From assembly GCA_017453065.1 (NCBI GenBank), contig JAFTKW010000010.1:1-43727 (forward strand): 43,727 nt of DNA. The letters run 5' to 3'. The position numbers and the translations under genes were made by a program. Shown here piece by piece: positions 18,243-33,595 of the stretch. This DNA comes from Lachnospiraceae bacterium (GTDB lineage: Bacteria > Bacillota > Clostridia > Lachnospirales > Lachnospiraceae). The notes under the pieces are model-generated. The model saw nothing but the letters and a program-made list of their open reading frames with translations, ran no database searches and was not told the DNA's origin. How positions within the stretch are numbered: position 1 is the first letter of the stretch; every line of letters begins with the position of its first letter.

Positions 18243-18446
18243 GAGTGAATGCTATAAATTGCATAATCGTTGGTTTTGAGATGACCCCAAGTGATAAGTA
18301 ATACAAAGATGAAGGCAACTGTGGTATAATCGAAACAAGATCTTAAGGTGAGAAAAGGCAAATAATAAAGACGATAAATACTGAAAACAAAATACAATTA
18401 TAACACAATGTAAGTCCGGATTAACGGACTTATAGGTGATTAAAAT
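18243..18446. other. Gene-free interval upstream of the tracrRNA
   Basis: No gene is supported. It holds a plus-strand extended -10, TGGTATAAT (TATAAT at 18325-18330), without a clear -35, and a perfect hairpin taagtccg/cggactta (18411-18432) next to the tracrRNA terminator. The promoter-like site could feed the cas operon, which would then have a leader of almost 300 bases running antisense through the tracrRNA gene. Confidence 0.4.
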
Positions 18447-18547
18447 AAAAAAAGACTTGTTACCAAGCCTTTTAAAATTCTACACCATGTAGAGTCTTAC
18501 GACGATATCGGATTAACCTTATTTGAACTCGTCTTTGTTAATTTGAT
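18447..18547 (-). ncRNA. tracrRNA of the type II-A system
   Basis: On the minus strand, 18546-18522 is an anti-repeat: it pairs with the first 21 bases of the CRISPR repeat as two helices separated by a bulge, the usual repeat:anti-repeat form. It is followed by AATAAGGTTAATCC, close to the nexus of the Streptococcus pyogenes tracrRNA (AATAAGGCTAGTCC), then a ctaca/tgtag hairpin, and finally an AAGGCTTG/CAAGTCTT hairpin (18452-18471) with seven Ts at 18453-18447. The RNA is about 100 nt. Start is inferred from the promoter below. Antisense placement upstream of cas9 is common in type II-A. Confidence 0.9.
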
Positions 18548-18553
18548 AATTGC

Positions 18554-18582
18554 ATATTAGCATTAACAACCAATATTGTCAA
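18554..18582 (-). promoter_or_regulatory. tracrRNA promoter
   Basis: Reading the minus strand: TTGACA (18582-18577), a 17-base spacer and TAATAT (18559-18554). Transcription would begin near 18547, directly at the anti-repeat. The -35 box lies about 30 bases upstream of the cas9 start codon, so tracrRNA and cas9 transcription face away from each other from the same short region. Confidence 0.85.
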
Positions 18583-18611
18583 CAAATAAAATATATAGAG
18601 GAGGTATACAA

Positions 18612-21600
18612 ATGAAGGGATACTATTTAGGATTGGATATGGGTACATCGTCTGTTGGGTGGGCAGTTACAGATGAGAATTATAATATCCTTCGAGCGAA
18701 AGGGAAGGATTTGTGGGGTGTGCGTGGATTTGAGGAAGCAAATACTGCTACAGAAAGAAGAACAAACAGAGTTAGTAGACGTAGAAGACAGAGAGAGGTA
18801 GCTAGAATTGGATTGTTAAAAGAGTATTTTGCAGATGCAATTGAAAAAATTGATCCGTATTTCTATCAGAGATTGGAGAATAGTAAGTTTTTCTTAGAAG
18901 ACAAGCCAGAGCGTGTAAGAAAGAAATATTCTCTTTTTGCAGATGCGGATTTGACAGATAAAGAATATTATGCAAAATATCCTACCATATTTCATCTGAG
19001 AAGCGAACTTTTACATTCTGACAAGCCACAAGATGTGCGCCTTGTCTTTTTGGCATTGTTAAATATGTATAAGCATAGAGGACATTTTTTAAACGCAACA
19101 TTATCAAATGAAGGCGCAGAGAAAGGTTTGCTGGTAGCCTTTAAAAATTTTGTGGGTATTTTACAAGAAGAGTGTGGAATTAACCTAATTGAAGAGTATG
19201 ATTTTGCTGCGATTGAGAACGTCTTAACAAACAAAGATTTTTCTAGAAAGAAAAAAGTAGAAGAGTTAACAGTTCTATTCGGATTAACAAACAAAGATAA
19301 GAAAAAGGTTGAGTTTATCAAAGCAATATGTGGACTGAAGGTAAATGCGAAAATCCTTTTTGATGGCATTGTGTTGGATGAAGAAAGGAAAATTGAATTT
19401 AGTTTTAGTGATTTTGGTTACGAAGAAAAGGTGCCAGAAATTGAAGATGCATTAGGTGAAGCGTATTATGCAATTGTCGAATGCATGAAGACGGTATATG
19501 ATAGTGCACTATTGCAGCATATAATGCGTGGCTATGAATATTTATCTGATGCAAGAGTTGCAGATTATGATAAACATGCTAAAGATTTAGCTATTCTTAA
19601 AAAAGTTATTAAGAAGTATAAGACAAAAGAAGAATATGATATGTTTTTTAGAAGTGAAGAAAAAGGAACATATTCTGCGTATGTTAATTCATCTAATTCG
19701 GGAGCAAGGATAAGAAGAGGATATAAAGAAAGAACGTCTGAGGCCCTTTATAAGAATATAAACAAGTTGATTTCTGGATTACCTGAAGATGATGACATTA
19801 CATATATCAAGGATGAAATAGGGAAAGAAAGTTTTCTGCCCAAACAGTTAACTGCTTCTAACGGTGTTATTCCAAATCAGGTACATGCTAGAGAGATGAT
19901 ACAAATCTTAAGAAATGCAGAGATGTATTTGCCATTTTTGTTAGAAAAGGATGAATTGGGACAGAGCGTATCGGAACGAATTGTTAAACTGTTTACATTT
20001 CAGATTCCCTATTATATTGGACCTACTTCTGAGGATAGTCATACTGGATGGGTGAAACGACTCGAAAAGGGGCCAGTGTTGCCATGGAATATTGAACAGA
20101 AAATTGACATAAAAGAAACTTCTAAAGAATTCATTTCCAAAATGGTTCGAAGATGTACATATATTTCGGGAGAAATGGTTTTGCCAAGGGCATCCTTGGA
20201 ATACGAAGCATTTTGTGTTTTGAATGAGATAAATAATATTGCAATTGATGGAGAACGTATTTCTGTCGAAATGAAACAGTTGCTCTATAACGAGTTGTTT
20301 AAAAAAGGAAAAAAAGTCACAAGAAAAGGAATTGCCAAACTATTGATGGCACAAGGTGTTCTTGATGATGAAAATAAACTCTCTGGAATAGATGTCAACA
20401 TCAATAATTCTCTCTCGACATATGGGAAATTCAGGGCTATTTTGGGAGAAAAAATAGAAGAGGATTTCTATAAACATATGGTGGAAGAAATTGTTTTTTG
20501 GTGTACTGTGTATGGAGATTCAAAATTCTTTGTGAAGGACAAGATAAGAGAAAAATATGAAGATTATTTATCAGAAGAGCAGATTAATAGGATTGCCGGA
20601 TTTAAGTTTAAAGACTGGGGTAGATTGTCTAAATCTTTGCTAGAAATGCAGGGGTGCGACAAGAGTATTGGAGAAAGTTTGTCTTTAGTCAGAATGATGT
20701 GGGAGACGAACCTTAACATGATGGAATTACTCCATAACGACAATTATACATATAAAGAACAACTTGCCGATAAACAGGATAAATCATTAAAGAGTCTTAC
20801 AGAACTGAAAGCGGAGGATTTGGATGACTTCTATTTCTCTGCACCTGTAAAAAGGATGGTATGGCAAACCCTCTTAATCATTAAAGAACTTGAATTGGTA
20901 CTAGGGGCGCCACCTGAGAGATTATTCGTGGAAATGACTAGAAGGGCTGATGACAAACCTACACGAACGGTATCTAGAAAACAGAAATTTTTACAGTTAT
21001 ATAAAACTATCAAAGATGAAGGTAGAGATTGGAAAGATGAGATAGAACGCGCAGACGCAGATGGCAGAATAAATAGTAAAAAGATGTACTTGTATTTTTG
21101 CCAGATGGGTCGTTGTATGTACACAGGAGAAGCCATTGACTTGAGTAATTTAGGTGCATACGATATAGATCATATCTATCCAAGACATTTTGTGAAAGAT
21201 GATAGTTTGGACAATAACCTAGTTTTGGTTAAGAAAGAAAAGAATGCTCATAAGAGTGATACTTATCCAATTGAACAGGAAATTCGTGATAAGCAGAAGG
21301 AACTATGGAATCGGTTAAAAACCATGAATTTACTTAATGAAGAAAAGTATAGACGATTAACTGGTAGAAATTCTTTCTCTGATGAACAGAAGGCTGATTT
21401 CATTGCAAGACAACTTGTGGAAACTAGTCAAGGTACAAAGGGAGTAACTGATATTTTGAGAAAAATGGTGCCTACAACAACTATTGTTTTCTCAAAGGCA
21501 TCAAATGTATCAGAATTTAGGCAGAGTAGAGGTATTCCAAAGAGCAGATTAGTGAATGAGTTCCATCATGCTCATGATGCATACTTGAATATTGTAGTAG

Positions 21601-22649
21601 GAAATGTTTACTATACGAAATTTACTCAAAATCCACTTAACTTTATACAAAAAGAATATGCAAAAGACAGAGTAAGACATGAGTATCATTTGAGTAGAAT
21701 GTTTGATTTCGATGTATCTAGAAACGGCTATGTCGCATGGAAAGGCGCAAAAGCAGGAGAAGAGCAGGGAACAATAGTCCTAGTAAAGAAGATGCTATCT
21801 AAGAACACCCCACTTGTCACGAGAAGAAGTTTTGAGGAACGTGGGGCTATTTCAAAAATTAACCCTGTAAGTGCTAAAGATACAACTCCACAGAGTTACT
21901 TGCCGCTTAAATGCAGTGATGAACGTATGCAAGATGTGACAAAATATGGCGGATATCAGTCTATTGCAATATCTTATTTTTGTTTGGTGGAGCATGGGCC
22001 AGAGAATAAGAGAATACGTACCTTGGAAGGTGTGCCCGTATACCTTAGAGATACAATAGAAAAAAAACCGGATAGACTTTTGGAGTATTGCAAAGAAACG
22101 CTACAGTTAGTCAATCCAAGAATATGCATGCGAAAGATTAAGAAGCAGTCGCTGATTAAGAAGGATGGATTTTTTGTGTATATTTCCGGGAAATCTGGTC
22201 TAACGATTACGTTGAGAAATGCTACAAATTTGTGCTTGAGTCAGGAATGGATTAGCTATGTTAAATTGATAGAGAATGCGGATTCTCAAAAGAAATTGAA
22301 TGATAAAATCTGTCATAGAAAAAATATTGAGTTGTTTGATGAATTGACAGAAAAGCATGTTGGAAATGTTTTTGCTAAAAAACCTACCTATGTGGGAGAT
22401 AAATTACAAAAGAATAGAGAGAAATTTCTACAACTGGGATTATTACAACAGTGCGAAACCATTAGAGAGATATTTGCATTAACTAGTGTTGGAGTTGCCA
22501 ATTCTGCAGATTTGTCTTTGTTAGGTGAAAGTTCAAGGAGCGGAGAAATGAAAATGATGAAAAATATTTCAAACTGTGAAGAGATGTGCTTGATTAATCA
22601 ATCTGTAACAGGCCTGTTTGAAAGCAGGATTGATCTTTTAAAAATATGA
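18612..22649 (+). CDS. cas9: Cas9, type II-A RNA-guided endonuclease
   Basis: A 1345-aa Cas9 that cuts DNA guided by crRNA:tracrRNA. Motifs in order: RuvC-I LGLDMGTSSVGWA (Asp9); arginine-rich bridge helix RTNRVSRRRRQR (about 52-63); large helical recognition lobe; RuvC-II with LFVEMTR (Glu774); HNH motif YDIDHIYPRHF (His854) with LDNNLVL; RuvC-III HHAHDA (His986, Asp989). All catalytic residues are present, so both strands should be cut. The C-terminal 300 residues are the PAM-interacting region; PAM is not predictable here. Start at ATG 18612 has AGAGGAGG at seven bases; an upstream in-frame ATG (18576) lies inside the tracrRNA promoter. Length and the csn2 partner fit II-A. Stop overlaps the cas1 start by four bases. 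Confidence 0.98.
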   Translation: MKGYYLGLDMGTSSVGWAVTDENYNILRAKGKDLWGVRGFEEANTATERRTNRVSRRRRQREVARIGLLKEYFADAIEKIDPYFYQRLENSKFFLEDKPERVRKKYSLFADADLTDKEYYAKYPTIFHLRSELLHSDKPQDVRLVFLALLNMYKHRGHFLNATLSNEGAEKGLLVAFKNFVGILQEECGINLIEEYDFAAIENVLTNKDFSRKKKVEELTVLFGLTNKDKKKVEFIKAICGLKVNAKILFDGIVLDEERKIEFSFSDFGYEEKVPEIEDALGEAYYAIVECMKTVYDSALLQHIMRGYEYLSDARVADYDKHAKDLAILKKVIKKYKTKEEYDMFFRSEEKGTYSAYVNSSNSGARIRRGYKERTSEALYKNINKLISGLPEDDDITYIKDEIGKESFLPKQLTASNGVIPNQVHAREMIQILRNAEMYLPFLLEKDELGQSVSERIVKLFTFQIPYYIGPTSEDSHTGWVKRLEKGPVLPWNIEQKIDIKETSKEFISKMVRRCTYISGEMVLPRASLEYEAFCVLNEINNIAIDGERISVEMKQLLYNELFKKGKKVTRKGIAKLLMAQGVLDDENKLSGIDVNINNSLSTYGKFRAILGEKIEEDFYKHMVEEIVFWCTVYGDSKFFVKDKIREKYEDYLSEEQINRIAGFKFKDWGRLSKSLLEMQGCDKSIGESLSLVRMMWETNLNMMELLHNDNYTYKEQLADKQDKSLKSLTELKAEDLDDFYFSAPVKRMVWQTLLIIKELELVLGAPPERLFVEMTRRADDKPTRTVSRKQKFLQLYKTIKDEGRDWKDEIERADADGRINSKKMYLYFCQMGRCMYTGEAIDLSNLGAYDIDHIYPRHFVKDDSLDNNLVLVKKEKNAHKSDTYPIEQEIRDKQKELWNRLKTMNLLNEEKYRRLTGRNSFSDEQKADFIARQLVETSQGTKGVTDILRKMVPTTTIVFSKASNVSEFRQSRGIPKSRLVNEFHHAHDAYLNIVVGNVYYTKFTQNPLNFIQKEYAKDRVRHEYHLSRMFDFDVSRNGYVAWKGAKAGEEQGTIVLVKKMLSKNTPLVTRRSFEERGAISKINPVSAKDTTPQSYLPLKCSDERMQDVTKYGGYQSIAISYFCLVEHGPENKRIRTLEGVPVYLRDTIEKKPDRLLEYCKETLQLVNPRICMRKIKKQSLIKKDGFFVYISGKSGLTITLRNATNLCLSQEWISYVKLIENADSQKKLNDKICHRKNIELFDELTEKHVGNVFAKKPTYVGDKLQKNREKFLQLGLLQQCETIREIFALTSVGVANSADLSLLGESSRSGEMKMMKNISNCEEMCLINQSVTGLFESRIDLLKI

Positions 22650-23518
22650 GTTGGCGAACAGTAGTTATATCGAACAGCGCAAAGCTTGATTATCAATTAG
22701 GGTATTTGGTTGTTAGAAGAGACGATGTGGTGAAGATTCACATTAGTGAGATTTCTATTTTAATAATAGAAACCACATCGGTCTCCTTAACTGCTGCTCT
22801 GTTGAGCGAGCTTATAAAGAAAAAGATAAAAGTCATATTTTGTGATGAGAAGAGAAATCCTTCATCGGAGTTAATACCGTATTACGGGGCACATGATACA
22901 AGCATAAAAATTAAGAACCAGATAGATTGGGATGCGGATATCAAGAGTAGTGTATGGACTGAGATAGTTAGTGAGAAAATTCGCAAACAAGCACAGCATT
23001 TAGAATATTGGAAATTACCTGAAAAACAAATGTTGTATGATTATCTTGATGAGATACAGTTTGGAGATTCGACAAATAGAGAGGGGCACGCTGCCAAAGT
23101 ATATTTTAATGCTTTGTTTGGAATGGATTTTACACGTACGGCAGAGAATAGCACCAATGCAGCTCTGAATTATGGATATGGTATTATTTTATCTGCATTT
23201 AACAGAGAGATTGTGGCAAATGGCTACATTACACAACTTGGACTCTTTCATGATAATATGTTTAACCAATTCAATCTTGGCTCAGATTTGATGGAACCCT
23301 TTAGACCAATTGTGGACAAAAAGGTAAAACAGATGAAACCAGCAAAGTTTGAACATGACGAAAAAATCTGTATTTTGCAAATTTTACAACAAGAAGTAAC
23401 TATTTCAAATCGAAATGAGTGTGTCAATAATGCGATTAAAATATATTGTAGAAGTATATTTGAAGCATTGAATGAAAGAGACATATCAGCGATAAAATTT
23501 TACGAATATGAGCTATAG
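22646..23518 (+). CDS. cas1: Cas1 integrase of the type II system
   Basis: Cas1, 290 aa, the integrase that with Cas2 inserts new spacers at the leader end of the array. The type II signature WRTVVISNSAKLDY opens the protein. The metal-binding residues are intact: Glu146 in NREGHAAKVYF, the His in LGLFHDNMFNQFNLGSDLMEPFRP and the acidic residues that follow. Its ATG overlaps the cas9 stop (ATGA), giving translational coupling, and its end overlaps the cas2 start by 11 bases. Confidence 0.97.
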   Translation: MSWRTVVISNSAKLDYQLGYLVVRRDDVVKIHISEISILIIETTSVSLTAALLSELIKKKIKVIFCDEKRNPSSELIPYYGAHDTSIKIKNQIDWDADIKSSVWTEIVSEKIRKQAQHLEYWKLPEKQMLYDYLDEIQFGDSTNREGHAAKVYFNALFGMDFTRTAENSTNAALNYGYGIILSAFNREIVANGYITQLGLFHDNMFNQFNLGSDLMEPFRPIVDKKVKQMKPAKFEHDEKICILQILQQEVTISNRNECVNNAIKIYCRSIFEALNERDISAIKFYEYEL

Positions 23519-23828
23519 ATATATGAGAGTAATAGTGTTGTTTGACTTGCCAGTTTTAACAGAAAAGAATAGAAGGGATTACAGGAATTTTCGTAAATAC
23601 CTTATTAAGTCTGGATTTTTGATGCTCCAAGAATCTGTCTATTGTAAGTTGGCGCAAAACAATGTGGCGGCTGAGTCCATTGTTGAAAATGTAAAGAAAA
23701 ATAAACCTAGCGCAGGCTTGGTGCAGTTATTGAGAGTGACAGAAAAACAGTATAACAAGATGGAGTTTGTAGTTGGTAATAGTATGACTAATGTACTTGA
23801 TTCAGATGAAAGGCTTGTAATATTATGA
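23508..23828 (+). CDS. cas2: Cas2, partner of Cas1
   Basis: Cas2, 106 aa, forms the dimer core of the Cas1-Cas2 integration complex. Ferredoxin-like start MRVIVLFDLPV is typical; the conserved Asp in FDLP and the RRDYRNFRKYLIKSGF helix are present. Chosen start is ATG 23508 overlapping cas1; ATG 23523 (MRVIV) is an equally possible start that removes five residues. It overlaps the csn2 start by four bases. Confidence 0.96.
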   Translation: MSYRYMRVIVLFDLPVLTEKNRRDYRNFRKYLIKSGFLMLQESVYCKLAQNNVAAESIVENVKKNKPSAGLVQLLRVTEKQYNKMEFVVGNSMTNVLDSDERLVIL

Positions 23829-24499
23829 GAATAGCATATCCGCCATACGATATTTCTATGGAGATAGAAGAAAATCATATATATGTGTTGTCTGTAGAAA
23901 ACACAACAGCGTATTCTGCAATATTAAGAGATATTTGGCTCCAAGCACAAGGAGCAGAAGGAAATATAATTATGTCAGAAGGGGAGAGAATATTAAATTT
24001 GTCTAAAGTGGCTATCTGTATTTTCAATCCTTTTGATATAAATTGTAATGAAAAGAAAATACTTAACAAAGTCTATCAAGAATTGAAACAAGTTTCGTTA
24101 GATAATCTAGTAGAAGAGCATGCGAATGTGAATAAGTCAATATTGAATTATCTGGAGCAAGTAGTTCAGGGAGTTTCATATGCTTTAGATTATAATATAG
24201 ACTTGGATATTATGGACTTGTTAAAAGTATATGATGTCCATATACAGATTGAAGGTGAAACGCTTCTTGAAAATTTGGTCGAATATGTACGAACGGTAAA
24301 TCAGATATGTAAAGTGTCAACAGTGTTTGCTATAGGATTGAAATATTATTTTAATGAAAAAGAACTAAAGCAATTGTATGAATTTCTTTTTTATGAGAAA
24401 ATAAATTTAATCATTGTAGAATCTATGCATTCTGCAATGATAAGCAATGAAAAATGCTGGATATTAGACAAAGATTTGTGTCTAATATCACCTAATTAA
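23825..24499 (+). CDS. csn2: Csn2, type II-A adaptation protein
   Basis: A 224-aa protein in the position and with the look of Csn2, the ring-forming DNA-end-binding protein that works with Cas1-Cas2 and Cas9 in spacer capture and defines subtype II-A. It shows the acidic helical middle part (LDNLVEEHANVNKSILNYLEQVVQG) and the C-terminal alpha/beta segment (VFAIGLKYYFNEKELKQLYEFLFYEKINLIIVES). The ATG overlaps the cas2 stop. AT-rich codons (many ATA, AAT) contrast with genes outside the locus. Size is close to the short S. pyogenes-type Csn2. Confidence 0.9.
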   Translation: MRIAYPPYDISMEIEENHIYVLSVENTTAYSAILRDIWLQAQGAEGNIIMSEGERILNLSKVAICIFNPFDINCNEKKILNKVYQELKQVSLDNLVEEHANVNKSILNYLEQVVQGVSYALDYNIDLDIMDLLKVYDVHIQIEGETLLENLVEYVRTVNQICKVSTVFAIGLKYYFNEKELKQLYEFLFYEKINLIIVESMHSAMISNEKCWILDKDLCLISPN

Positions 24500-24557
24500 A
24501 TTAACAACGCCCTCGCATGGCGTAGTACTTGGTGATAATCTCATGGTCAAATTTGAG
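24500..24557 (+). promoter_or_regulatory. CRISPR leader ending in the ATTTGAG anchor
   Basis: The 58 bases between csn2 and the first repeat form the leader. Its last seven bases are ATTTGAG (24551-24557), which is the leader-anchoring sequence required for polarised spacer insertion in type II-A systems of streptococci. A hairpin acgcc/ggcgt lies near 24507-24523 and a weak -10 (gataat) near 24534. Confidence 0.85.
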
Positions 24558-25187
24558 GTTTGAGAGTCTTGTTAATTTGAAAAGGTACTAAACAATATTT
24601 TTTCGTGTCTCAAGTGTTGTAGGTGTTTGAGAGTCTTGTTAATTTGAAAAGGTACTAAACCGGTTCTGGTGGCGGTACTGCAGAAGAAACGTTTGAGAGT
24701 CTTGTTAATTTGAAAAGGTACTAAACCACTCAGAACGGTGTGAACATTGCTATATCGTTTGAGAGTCTTGTTAATTTGAAAAGGTACTAAACACTGTTAA
24801 CCTCGCCACCGTGTCCGCCTTGGTTTGAGAGTCTTGTTAATTTGAAAAGGTACTAAACAGAAGAATCCAGATTCAGTAGTTCCACAAGGTTTGAGAGTCT
24901 TGTTAATTTGAAAAGGTACTAAACAAATATTTACACAACACACACCAACGCCTAGTTTGAGAGTCTTGTTAATTTGAAAAGGTACTAAACAAGATAAAAC
25001 AAGAAGCAATATCAAGATTTGTTTGAGAGTCTTGTTAATTTGAAAAGGTACTAAACAATCGATGCATCAGGATTGGGAATCTCTATGTTTGAGAGTCTTG
25101 TTAATTTGAAAGGTACTAAACCCCAACATTTCCTGTACGGTGGAGTTGCCCGTTTGAGAGTCTTGTTAATTTGAGAGGCGTTAGATG
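24558..25187 (+). CRISPR. Type II-A CRISPR array: 10 repeats, 9 spacers
   Basis: Repeats are 36 bases, beginning gtttgagagtct and ending aggtactaaac. Starts: 24558, 24625, 24691, 24757, 24823, 24889, 24955, 25021, 25087, 25152. The first eight are identical; the ninth is 35 bases (one A lost from the aaaa run); the tenth keeps only its first 22 bases and diverges after, marking the leader-distal end. Spacers are 30 bases, except the first (leader-proximal), which is 31. All nine spacers look distinct. No spacer was seen to match elsewhere in the window by eye. Same strand as cas9. Confidence 0.98.
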
Positions 25188-32301: not shown

Positions 32302-32979
32302 ATGAGTAAATTGACTTTGTATCACGGCTCCTACGAAATTGTGGGAAAGCCTGTCTATGGTATGGGAAAAGAATACAATGATTATGGTAGAGGATTTTAC
32401 TGTACTGAGCATATAGAGCTGGCCAAGGAATGGGCCTGCGCAGAAGGAACGGGTGGATATGTAAATGAATACCAGCTTGAGATGGAAGGGCTTAAGGTTT
32501 TGAATCTTTCATCAGAAGAATATATGGTATTGCATTGGCTGGCGCTTCTTATGACATATCGAAAGATACGTTTGACTACGCCAGTGATGATGCAGGGAGT
32601 ACAATGGTTGAAGGAGCATTTTTTGCTGGATGTAGAAGCCTATGATGTGATAATAGGATACCGGGCAGATGATTCCTATTTTTCTTTTGCTAGAGCCTTC
32701 GTGAACAATGAGATATCCTTGGAGCAGCTTAGTTATGCCATGAAGCTTGGAAGACTGGGTGAGCAAGTGGTACTAAAGTCGGCCAAGGCTATGGAGCAAA
32801 TGAATTCGGTTGGCGCAGAGTCTGTAGATAGTACCATTTACTATGCTAAGCGAAAGGTTCGAGACGAGGAGGCAAGAAATGCCTTTTTCAAGGAAATGGC
32901 GAAAGAGGGCGTGAATGGAATCTTCATCCGTGATTTGATCAGAGGGGAGGTTGAACCTGATGATGCACGCTTACGATAA
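32302..32979 (+). CDS. DUF3990-like protein, probable ADP-ribosyltransferase-fold toxin
   Basis: A 225-aa protein whose N-terminal 160 residues look like DUF3990: TLYHGSYEIV with the His, then the DYGRGFYCTEHIELAKEWA segment with Gly-Phe-Tyr, then a VIIGYRADDSYFSFARAF segment. This family is placed in the ADP-ribosyltransferase-fold clan, where the His and Tyr bind NAD. The C-terminal part is a charged helix pair. It is encoded just upstream of, and overlaps by 20 bases, a helix-turn-helix gene, and the pair has a palindromic autoregulatory promoter; together this looks like a type II toxin-antitoxin module. Toxicity and target are inferred. Start ATG 32302 has a weak GAGGTG site. Confidence 0.7.
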   Translation: MSKLTLYHGSYEIVGKPVYGMGKEYNDYGRGFYCTEHIELAKEWACAEGTGGYVNEYQLEMEGLKVLNLSSEEYMVLHWLALLMTYRKIRLTTPVMMQGVQWLKEHFLLDVEAYDVIIGYRADDSYFSFARAFVNNEISLEQLSYAMKLGRLGEQVVLKSAKAMEQMNSVGAESVDSTIYYAKRKVRDEEARNAFFKEMAKEGVNGIFIRDLIRGEVEPDDARLR

Positions 32980-33595
32980 AAATTACGTGGATGATGCTAT
33001 GAGCAATTTAGGTGAAGCTTTTGACTATGCGGTCAACGAGTGCAACTTAAAACCAGATGAATTTTTGGATATGTTTATCACCGTTGGGGTGGCCGGTCAG
33101 TTTGGCGAGGGAACGCCCAAGTATGTATCTGGCATGTCGGGAACAGAACTAGTGTGGGAAGTGTTTAACCGTGCCGGGCTGAAGCGGAGATTGCCAGAAG
33201 CAGGTTGTGATTTGGAACGCTCCCCGGAGTATTGGTGTGGCTGGATATTGGCTTATTATCAGTGGTATACGGGCAAAAGTTTCAAACAAATCAAGCAGTA
33301 CCTATCTATGGAAGAGATATCCAAGATGTATGGAACGCTTCATGAAGCAAGCGAAGATAACTTTGTAGACGCCATTGACAGAAAACTACAGGGAATGGAT
33401 AATCAGACTAAGTTGCAAATCTTACGCAAGGCAGTAGGATATTCGCAGAAGGAATTGGCTCTTCGGTCCGGAGTTACACTTCGAATGATTCAGCAGTATG
33501 AACAGCGAGCCAAGGATATCAACAAAGCCAGTACGGTAAATCTAGTGGCACTTTCTAAGGTACTGGGATGTAAAGTAGAAGATTTGCTGGAATAA
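32960..33595 (+). CDS. XRE-type helix-turn-helix protein, probable antitoxin
   Basis: A 211-aa protein. The C-terminal 70 residues are an XRE/Cro helix-turn-helix (LQILRKAVGYSQKELALRSGVTLRMIQQYEQRAKDINKASTVNLVALSKVLGCKVEDLLE). The N-terminal 130 residues form a separate domain with an aromatic stretch SPEYWCGWILAYYQWYTGKSF and probably bind the DUF3990-like partner. Start at ATG 32960 has GGGGAGG nine bases upstream, overlapping the toxin gene by 20 bases. It is presumably the protein that binds the two palindromes upstream. Order toxin first, antitoxin second. Confidence 0.75.
   Translation: MMHAYDKNYVDDAMSNLGEAFDYAVNECNLKPDEFLDMFITVGVAGQFGEGTPKYVSGMSGTELVWEVFNRAGLKRRLPEAGCDLERSPEYWCGWILAYYQWYTGKSFKQIKQYLSMEEISKMYGTLHEASEDNFVDAIDRKLQGMDNQTKLQILRKAVGYSQKELALRSGVTLRMIQQYEQRAKDINKASTVNLVALSKVLGCKVEDLLE

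Follow-up and report, generated by a model that had tools for sequence, protein, structure and literature searches.

A probable intact type II-A CRISPR-Cas9 locus of a Lachnospiraceae-like bacterium, with a comparatively supported tracrRNA and a spacer matching an integrase gene

In Streptococcus pyogenes, the source of the type II-A SpCas9, the genes lie in the order cas9-cas1-cas2-csn2 and the repeat pairs with the anti-repeat in a bulged duplex, both as in the locus described here, while its tracrRNA carries other 3'-terminal hairpins than ours. Eubacterium ventriosum, the source of EvCas9, is a gut firmicute. EvCas9 is also of type II-A in the sections of PMC13052146 and PMC11403445 that we consulted, and is termed compact in the latter. 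The Cas9 of Faecalibaculum rodentium, FrCas9 (PDB 9JWK, so identified in the available part of PMC13052146), is a type II-A protein for which the PAM NNTA is given. As far as its description extends, its locus likewise has cas1, cas2 and csn2, and a tracrRNA transcribed in the opposite direction lies upstream of its cas9. Cas9 and the dual RNA co-evolve, and exchange works among close relatives only (the consulted sections of PMC3936727), so that the guide RNA of a given locus should be the fitting one for its own Cas9, including the one reported here. PAMs have been predicted for 2546 of 2779 Cas9 clusters from metagenome-assembled genomes (the consulted part of PMC9617884).

The window, by which we mean the whole stretch of 43,727 nucleotides analysed, contained a complete type II-A CRISPR-Cas9 locus at positions 18447-25187, consisting of an antisense tracrRNA, cas9, cas1, cas2, csn2, a leader and an array (Table 1). 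The four cas frames were open across 5.9 kb and overlapped by 4 bases (cas9/cas1), 11 bases (cas1/cas2) and 4 bases (cas2/csn2), confirming the tight coupling by overlaps of 4 to 11 bases that had been claimed, while AGGAGG was found at 18599-18604, seven bases 5' of the cas9 ATG. All four proteins scored above the curated NCBIfam cut-offs, with 873 bits for Csn1 (TIGR01865, cut-off 100 bits), 304 for the type II Cas1, 76 for Cas2 and 155 for Csn2 (TIGR01866, cut-off 35 bits), and the PADLOC calls agreed with NCBIfam and Pfam on the cas genes. The presence of csn2 beside cas9-cas1-cas2, as in type II-A, was recognised by TIGR01866, PF09711 and the PADLOC Csn2 models. The original prediction of a complete and intact type II-A locus was thus borne out in all its parts, and from the sequence we consider it almost certain that a Lachnospiraceae-like bacterium here carries an intact adaptive immune system of CRISPR-Cas type II-A. 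The assembly spans 2.73 Mb at 84.7% completeness and 5.06% contamination, and a search throughout this incomplete sequence returned one cas9 and one cas1. No second match to the array was observed in the assembly at E 0.001, so no spacer was self-targeting at high identity. Elsewhere in the window, at 32302-33595, a DUF3990 protein (PADLOC PDC-M42A, 2.4e-44) and a downstream HTH protein (PDC-M42B, 1.6e-12; HTH_3) were encoded by genes that share 20 bases; the two are predicted to be a candidate defence pair and are arranged like a toxin-antitoxin system.

Table 1. Features of the predicted type II-A locus, in positions of the window.
Feature	Position	Strand	Details and basis
Terminator-like hairpin of tracrRNA	18450..18473	-	predicted from sequence
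Hairpin UCUACA-UGG-UGUAGA, conserved loop	18479..18493	-	helix 3; covarying stem
Nexus stem GG..CC	18510..18518	-	in 21/21 sequences
Anti-repeat, pairs with 5' part of CRISPR repeat	18520..18546	-	duplex -20.7 kcal/mol; own-repeat co-variation, 18 loci
Predicted tracrRNA, ~100 nt, upstream of cas9	18447..18547	-	start inferred from promoter
Predicted tracrRNA promoter, TTGACA-17-TAATAT, TG before second hexamer	18554..18582	-	consensus match, 10/12 positions
cas9	18612..22649	+	1345 aa; ATG start; NCBIfam, Pfam, PDB comparison, motif alignment
cas1	22646..23518	+	290 aa; open frame, NCBIfam, PADLOC
cas2	23508..23828	+	106 aa; open frame, NCBIfam, PADLOC
csn2, short form	23825..24499	+	224 aa; open frame, NCBIfam, Pfam, PADLOC
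Leader end ATTTGAG	24551..24557	+	directly abuts first repeat (GTTT start)
CRISPR array	24558..25187	+	10 repeats, 9 spacers
Spacer S1, leader-proximal	24594..24624	+	matches tyrosine-integrase gene

Within Cas9, the Pfam domains REC, HNH_4, RuvC and PI all scored above their cut-offs, and the bridge-helix model fell narrowly below (26.1 vs 26.3 bits). All RuvC and HNH catalytic residues had been claimed, and all were present both in the sequence and in the motif alignment, namely D9, E774, H986 and D989 of RuvC and D853, H854 and N878 of HNH, positions which we take to be catalytic from their SpCas9 equivalents. FrCas9 aligned with the window Cas9 over its whole length with 559 of 1335 residues identical (41.9%, from three separately aligned pieces), and the last 345 residues were the least alike (37.9% vs 43-44% elsewhere). 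SpCas9 also gave a whole-length alignment, at approximately 437 bits vs 1052 for FrCas9. By analogy, Cas9 and its dual RNA would carry out RNA-guided, PAM-dependent cleavage of DNA.

The suggestion that this Cas9 may be an uncharacterised orthologue stood in part, while the reasons offered for it proved weak. No near-identical Cas9 was found among the solved structures (PDB), where FrCas9 at about 42% was the best. A literature search likewise returned no near-identical characterised Cas9, most characterised orthologues' sequences lying outside the comparison, and against this comparison set the window Cas9 is probably uncharacterised. In PMC7606464, a catalogue of Cas9 proteins, the main text mentions Clostridia in one passage and Lachnospiraceae in none, and the portions of PMC13020425 and PMC3936727 consulted contain nothing on either. 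The HNH motif DIDHIYP, put forward as a sign of novelty, was the commonest form among relatives, observed in 26 of the 36 aligned Cas9s (one further row was unreadable at two letters), and is therefore no peculiarity of this protein. A repeat unlike the streptococcal one was similarly a weak sign of novelty, as repeats of the same kind occur in relatives (GTTTGAGA...).

Of 397 genomes sampled across the family, 33 (the window's own included) had a Cas9 homologue at E 1e-50 or better. Among the 36 aligned Cas9s the nearest was that of L002 (62.3% identity), followed by that of genome G060 (58.2%). L002, the closest intact homologue found, is the II-A locus of Lachnoclostridium sp. UBA7215 (DKUB01000006.1), a MAG, with Cas1, Cas2 and Csn2 identities of 76.6%, 74.5% and 43.0%, respectively, and with 53.7% identity in the PAM-interacting part of Cas9 against 62.3% for the whole protein. 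Gene order in the relatives was the same as in the window locus. A Cas9 phylogeny, proposed along with the original prediction, paired the window with L002 (support 98/97) and, among the 36 rows, set both in a clade of 23 (100/100). Those of the nearest Cas9 loci that have a named source come from Lachnospiraceae, which lends inferential support to the assignment first made from the sequence. The eight Cas9 rows of the window's genus needed at least four changes on well-supported branches of this tree, by which a single origin of the II-A locus inside the genus was rejected, and the loci may instead have moved between lineages or have been lost and regained.

Several related loci were no longer whole. 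Two with 63-64% Cas9 identity in their best segments were broken and were left out of the alignment: in L006 (10001-13574) one open frame fuses Cas9 from residue 1206 on into residue 163 of Cas1, and in L004 (10001-13322) Cas9 is without the stretch between about 887 and 1180. Within the window's genus, L155 (genome G398) had csn2, cas2 and a cas1 in two pieces with no cas9 match, while L156/L174 (genome G474) retained Cas9 residues 4-143 only, a tracrRNA and an array of seven repeats. In a record filed as a bacteriophage (MT835488.1; L138/L139), cas9, cas1, cas2 and csn2 directly adjoined phage-like genes, and the record closed with three repeats. The idea of a phage encoding a Cas9 was considered for this record and rejected, since suf, pur and enolase genes, read by eye, give it the look of a bacterial scaffold into which a prophage has integrated.

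The array showed the direct repeats and unique spacers of a type II system. Repeats were 36 nt long, with repeats 1-8 identical, the ninth copy lacking one A (35 nt) and the tenth having a degenerate 3' end, while the spacers were 30 nt each except S1 (31 nt). The ATTTGAG/GTTT junction at the first repeat was of the Group 1 type of II-A leaders, and the heptamer was present at the leader end in 13 of the 21 loci compared, the window included. In the consulted part of PMC5382924, ATTTGAG is the Group 1 leader motif, found in 87 of 167 II-A loci, whereas the SpCas9 locus falls in the CTRCGAG group.

An antisense tracrRNA with its own promoter had also been claimed, and as a predicted transcript it was upheld by the promoter match, the terminator, the fold and comparison. 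The region folded better than all of 200 shuffles (z-score -3.78). The best-scoring Rfam model, RF02348, matched at full length with 20.8 bits (E 0.48), far below its cut-off of 70, and the tracrRNA was therefore tested by comparison of loci. A motif search over 32 sequences (the window and 31 loci) gave 26 rows, from which one false positive was dropped to leave 25 tracrRNAs, so that an antisense motif like the window's was present in 24 of the 31 further loci. Twenty-one of the 25 were aligned; L002, L144, L146 and L150 were left out by eye for a longer or different 3' part. The nexus stem was invariant and gives no covariation evidence. In the 3' hairpin stem (helix 3), four of six pairs were changed on both sides, with 85.6% of cells paired. 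Two-sided changes over three helices amounted to 28 cells, compared with a shuffled mean of 9.6 (0 of 500 shuffles as high) and with 3 to 7 cells when the partners were slid. Two of the five shuffle measures were unremarkable: for the number of pairs with a two-sided change, 115 of 500 shuffles scored as high, and for further pair types 485 of 500 did so. The core of this hairpin, CA-UKG-UG, was kept in most of the 21 rows (the window and 20 relatives) while the stem covaried, and it is possibly a contact with Cas9.

Pairing of each tracrRNA with its own repeat was also compared. Over 18 loci the repeat:anti-repeat duplex of own pairs had a mean energy of -22.9 kcal/mol, compared with -14.9 when partners were swapped, and the own-pair value was reached by none of 10,000 permutations, a test in which the relatedness of the loci remains. 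The window tracrRNA ranked second of the 18 for the window repeat, and its anti-repeat had one A more than the aligned relatives, giving a bulge in the duplex. The tracrRNA expected of a type II locus is thus well supported by sequence and comparison as a predicted transcript, and from these we infer its expression. A second terminator-like hairpin was present on the minus strand at 18411-18432, just behind the tracrRNA terminator.

In S. pyogenes a long tracrRNA acts as a natural single guide and represses the cas operon. In the window, no more than 60 bases separate the promoter of the tracrRNA from the start codon of cas9, which would suit a longer form acting in the same way, but the 200 bases 5' of the anti-repeat held no repeat-like stretch whose pairing with the anti-repeat clearly exceeded that of shuffles (102 of 200 shuffles were as good in the window, and 34 to 199 of 200 in the other nine of the ten loci tested), and we regard such self-guided repression as very improbable here.

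A locus complete in sequence may also be silent or hypoactive, a relic that no longer acquires spacers. The short array of nine spacers, its shortened ninth repeat and the decay of four related loci (cas9 missing from L155, cut to its start in L156/L174 and broken in L004 and L006) would agree with this. However, the open frames and retained catalytic residues, the identity of repeats 1-8 and a tracrRNA that still matches its own repeat all speak for an intact system, and the base lost from the ninth repeat lies outside the pairing part, leaving all ten copies with the same duplex energy (-20.3). We accordingly assign a low probability to a relic and retain the reading of the locus as an intact immune system.

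Spacer S1, the newest by usual array polarity because it is leader-proximal, matched 27 of 31 bases on a contig from another genus of the family (G302:C203; L177 4301-4331), and the final 15 bases, at the PAM-side end, all agreed. The site lies inside a tyrosine-integrase gene (Pfam Phage_integrase, PHROG integrase), and its neighbours, which include HNH endonuclease, MazF-like, sigma-factor-like and IS605-type genes, mark the contig as mobile DNA. All four mismatches were synonymous (peptide SPTTLETRKNI), an outcome given by random fourfold changes in 727 of 200,000 trials. When IMG/VR was scanned for PTTLETRKNI with codon degeneracy allowed, two viral contigs (50,454 and 145,752 bases) came up, and on each the peptide lay in a homologous integrase. 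Their sites (L185 and L186) were each six DNA bases off S1, some of these on the PAM side. These matches show S1, as judged from sequence, to be directed at an integrase gene carried by phages or related mobile DNA, and the cell presumably encountered such an integrase-bearing element. An origin in phage or mobile DNA, as in other II-A arrays, was thereby traced for one of the nine spacers.

For the other eight spacers no credible protospacer was found in the phage, plasmid, IMG/VR and genome searches. BLAST of the whole array matched 49 of 50,697 phage records, of which the best 40 gave weak pieces, and 9 of 72,556 plasmid records, again in weak pieces, with none credible in either set; the related array of MT835488.1 was also picked up. 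Seed scans of IMG/VR with 18-19 nt of S2, S3 and S9 returned no contigs, while 16-nt seeds of S4, S5, S8 and S6 returned 38, 39, 5 and 9, respectively; in these the remaining 14 nt matched at best at 6, 8, 4 and 6 of 14 positions, and they were rejected as chance (one S5 match at a contig end was left unscored). The seed scans covered these seven spacers, and S1 was followed in IMG/VR through its peptide. Also rejected were a site for S9 in L178 (six mismatches, next to the PAM side), sites for S2 in L180 and L181 (seven mismatches each) and one for S7 in L179 (seven). The genome searches with the arrays of the window and its relatives scored no more than 2-4 candidates in each genome, which makes the protospacer counts lower bounds. 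Four relatives' arrays matched among phages just the array of MT835488.1 itself and weak pieces of Staphylococcus phages. Six were searched against genomes, that of L140 in 77 from its own genus and the other five in 138 from the genus of the window, and at least three credible protospacers were found: two for L157 (29/30, flank TGAAAC; 27/30, TTCTAT) and one for L148 (27/30, TAAAAT). The best of these (29/30, from an array of the window's genus) falls within the tail and baseplate region of a prophage. Two four-mismatch matches (flanks TTTCAG and ATATTT) were dropped as being at chance level by estimate. The relatives' flanks had no clear common motif and their Cas9s differ, and so no PAM was inferred from them.

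The search with all nine spacers, suggested at the outset as a means of reading the PAM, therefore yielded one target family and no PAM. The 3' flanks of the three S1-like sites, GACATTCC (L177), GATATTCC (L185) and GACATCCC (L186), all begin GAYATYCC. This flank encodes G-(M/I)-S, which is conserved as protein, so that its sameness across the sites does not in itself speak for a PAM, and a single target family cannot fix one; as a lead, something like GAYAT should satisfy the PAM. A PAM unlike those of characterised relatives, for example AT at positions 4-5 within GAYATYCC, would fit the shared flank of the three homologous sites, the low similarity of the last 345 residues to FrCas9 and the divergence of the PAM-interacting part from that of L002. 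The flank is nevertheless coding sequence conserved as protein within one family, and the FrCas9-type NNTA fits the L185 site (GATA) but not those of L177 and L186 (GACA). A PAM unlike that of the characterised relatives is in our estimation unlikely, and a FrCas9-like PAM may apply. It is improbable that the clade as a whole combines a guide-RNA plan of its own, that is, a 3' hairpin whose CA-UKG-UG core hardly varies, in an RNA scoring under the Rfam tracrRNA cut-off, with a PAM within GAYAT that is new to characterised Cas9s; if this were true, the Cas9 would be an orthogonal editor.

As an intact immune system, the locus would be expected to work as follows. From what is known of the II-A family, Cas1-Cas2-Csn2, with Cas9 selecting targets by PAM, would insert 30-nt spacers at the ATTTGAG/GTTT junction, and the array would be transcribed rightwards. 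Each repeat would pair with the anti-repeat of the antisense tracrRNA, a step that comparative sequence evidence supports, and RNase III would trim the resulting duplex. Cas9 and the dual RNA would then cut DNA that matches a spacer and bears the PAM on its 3' side. With Cas9 homologues common in the family and a PAM survey already in existence (PMC9617884, in the part consulted), the locus opens no new biology. What it adds, and what would suffice for producing and assaying the enzyme, is one more intact, diverged II-A locus for which the tracrRNA has comparative support and one target family is identified.
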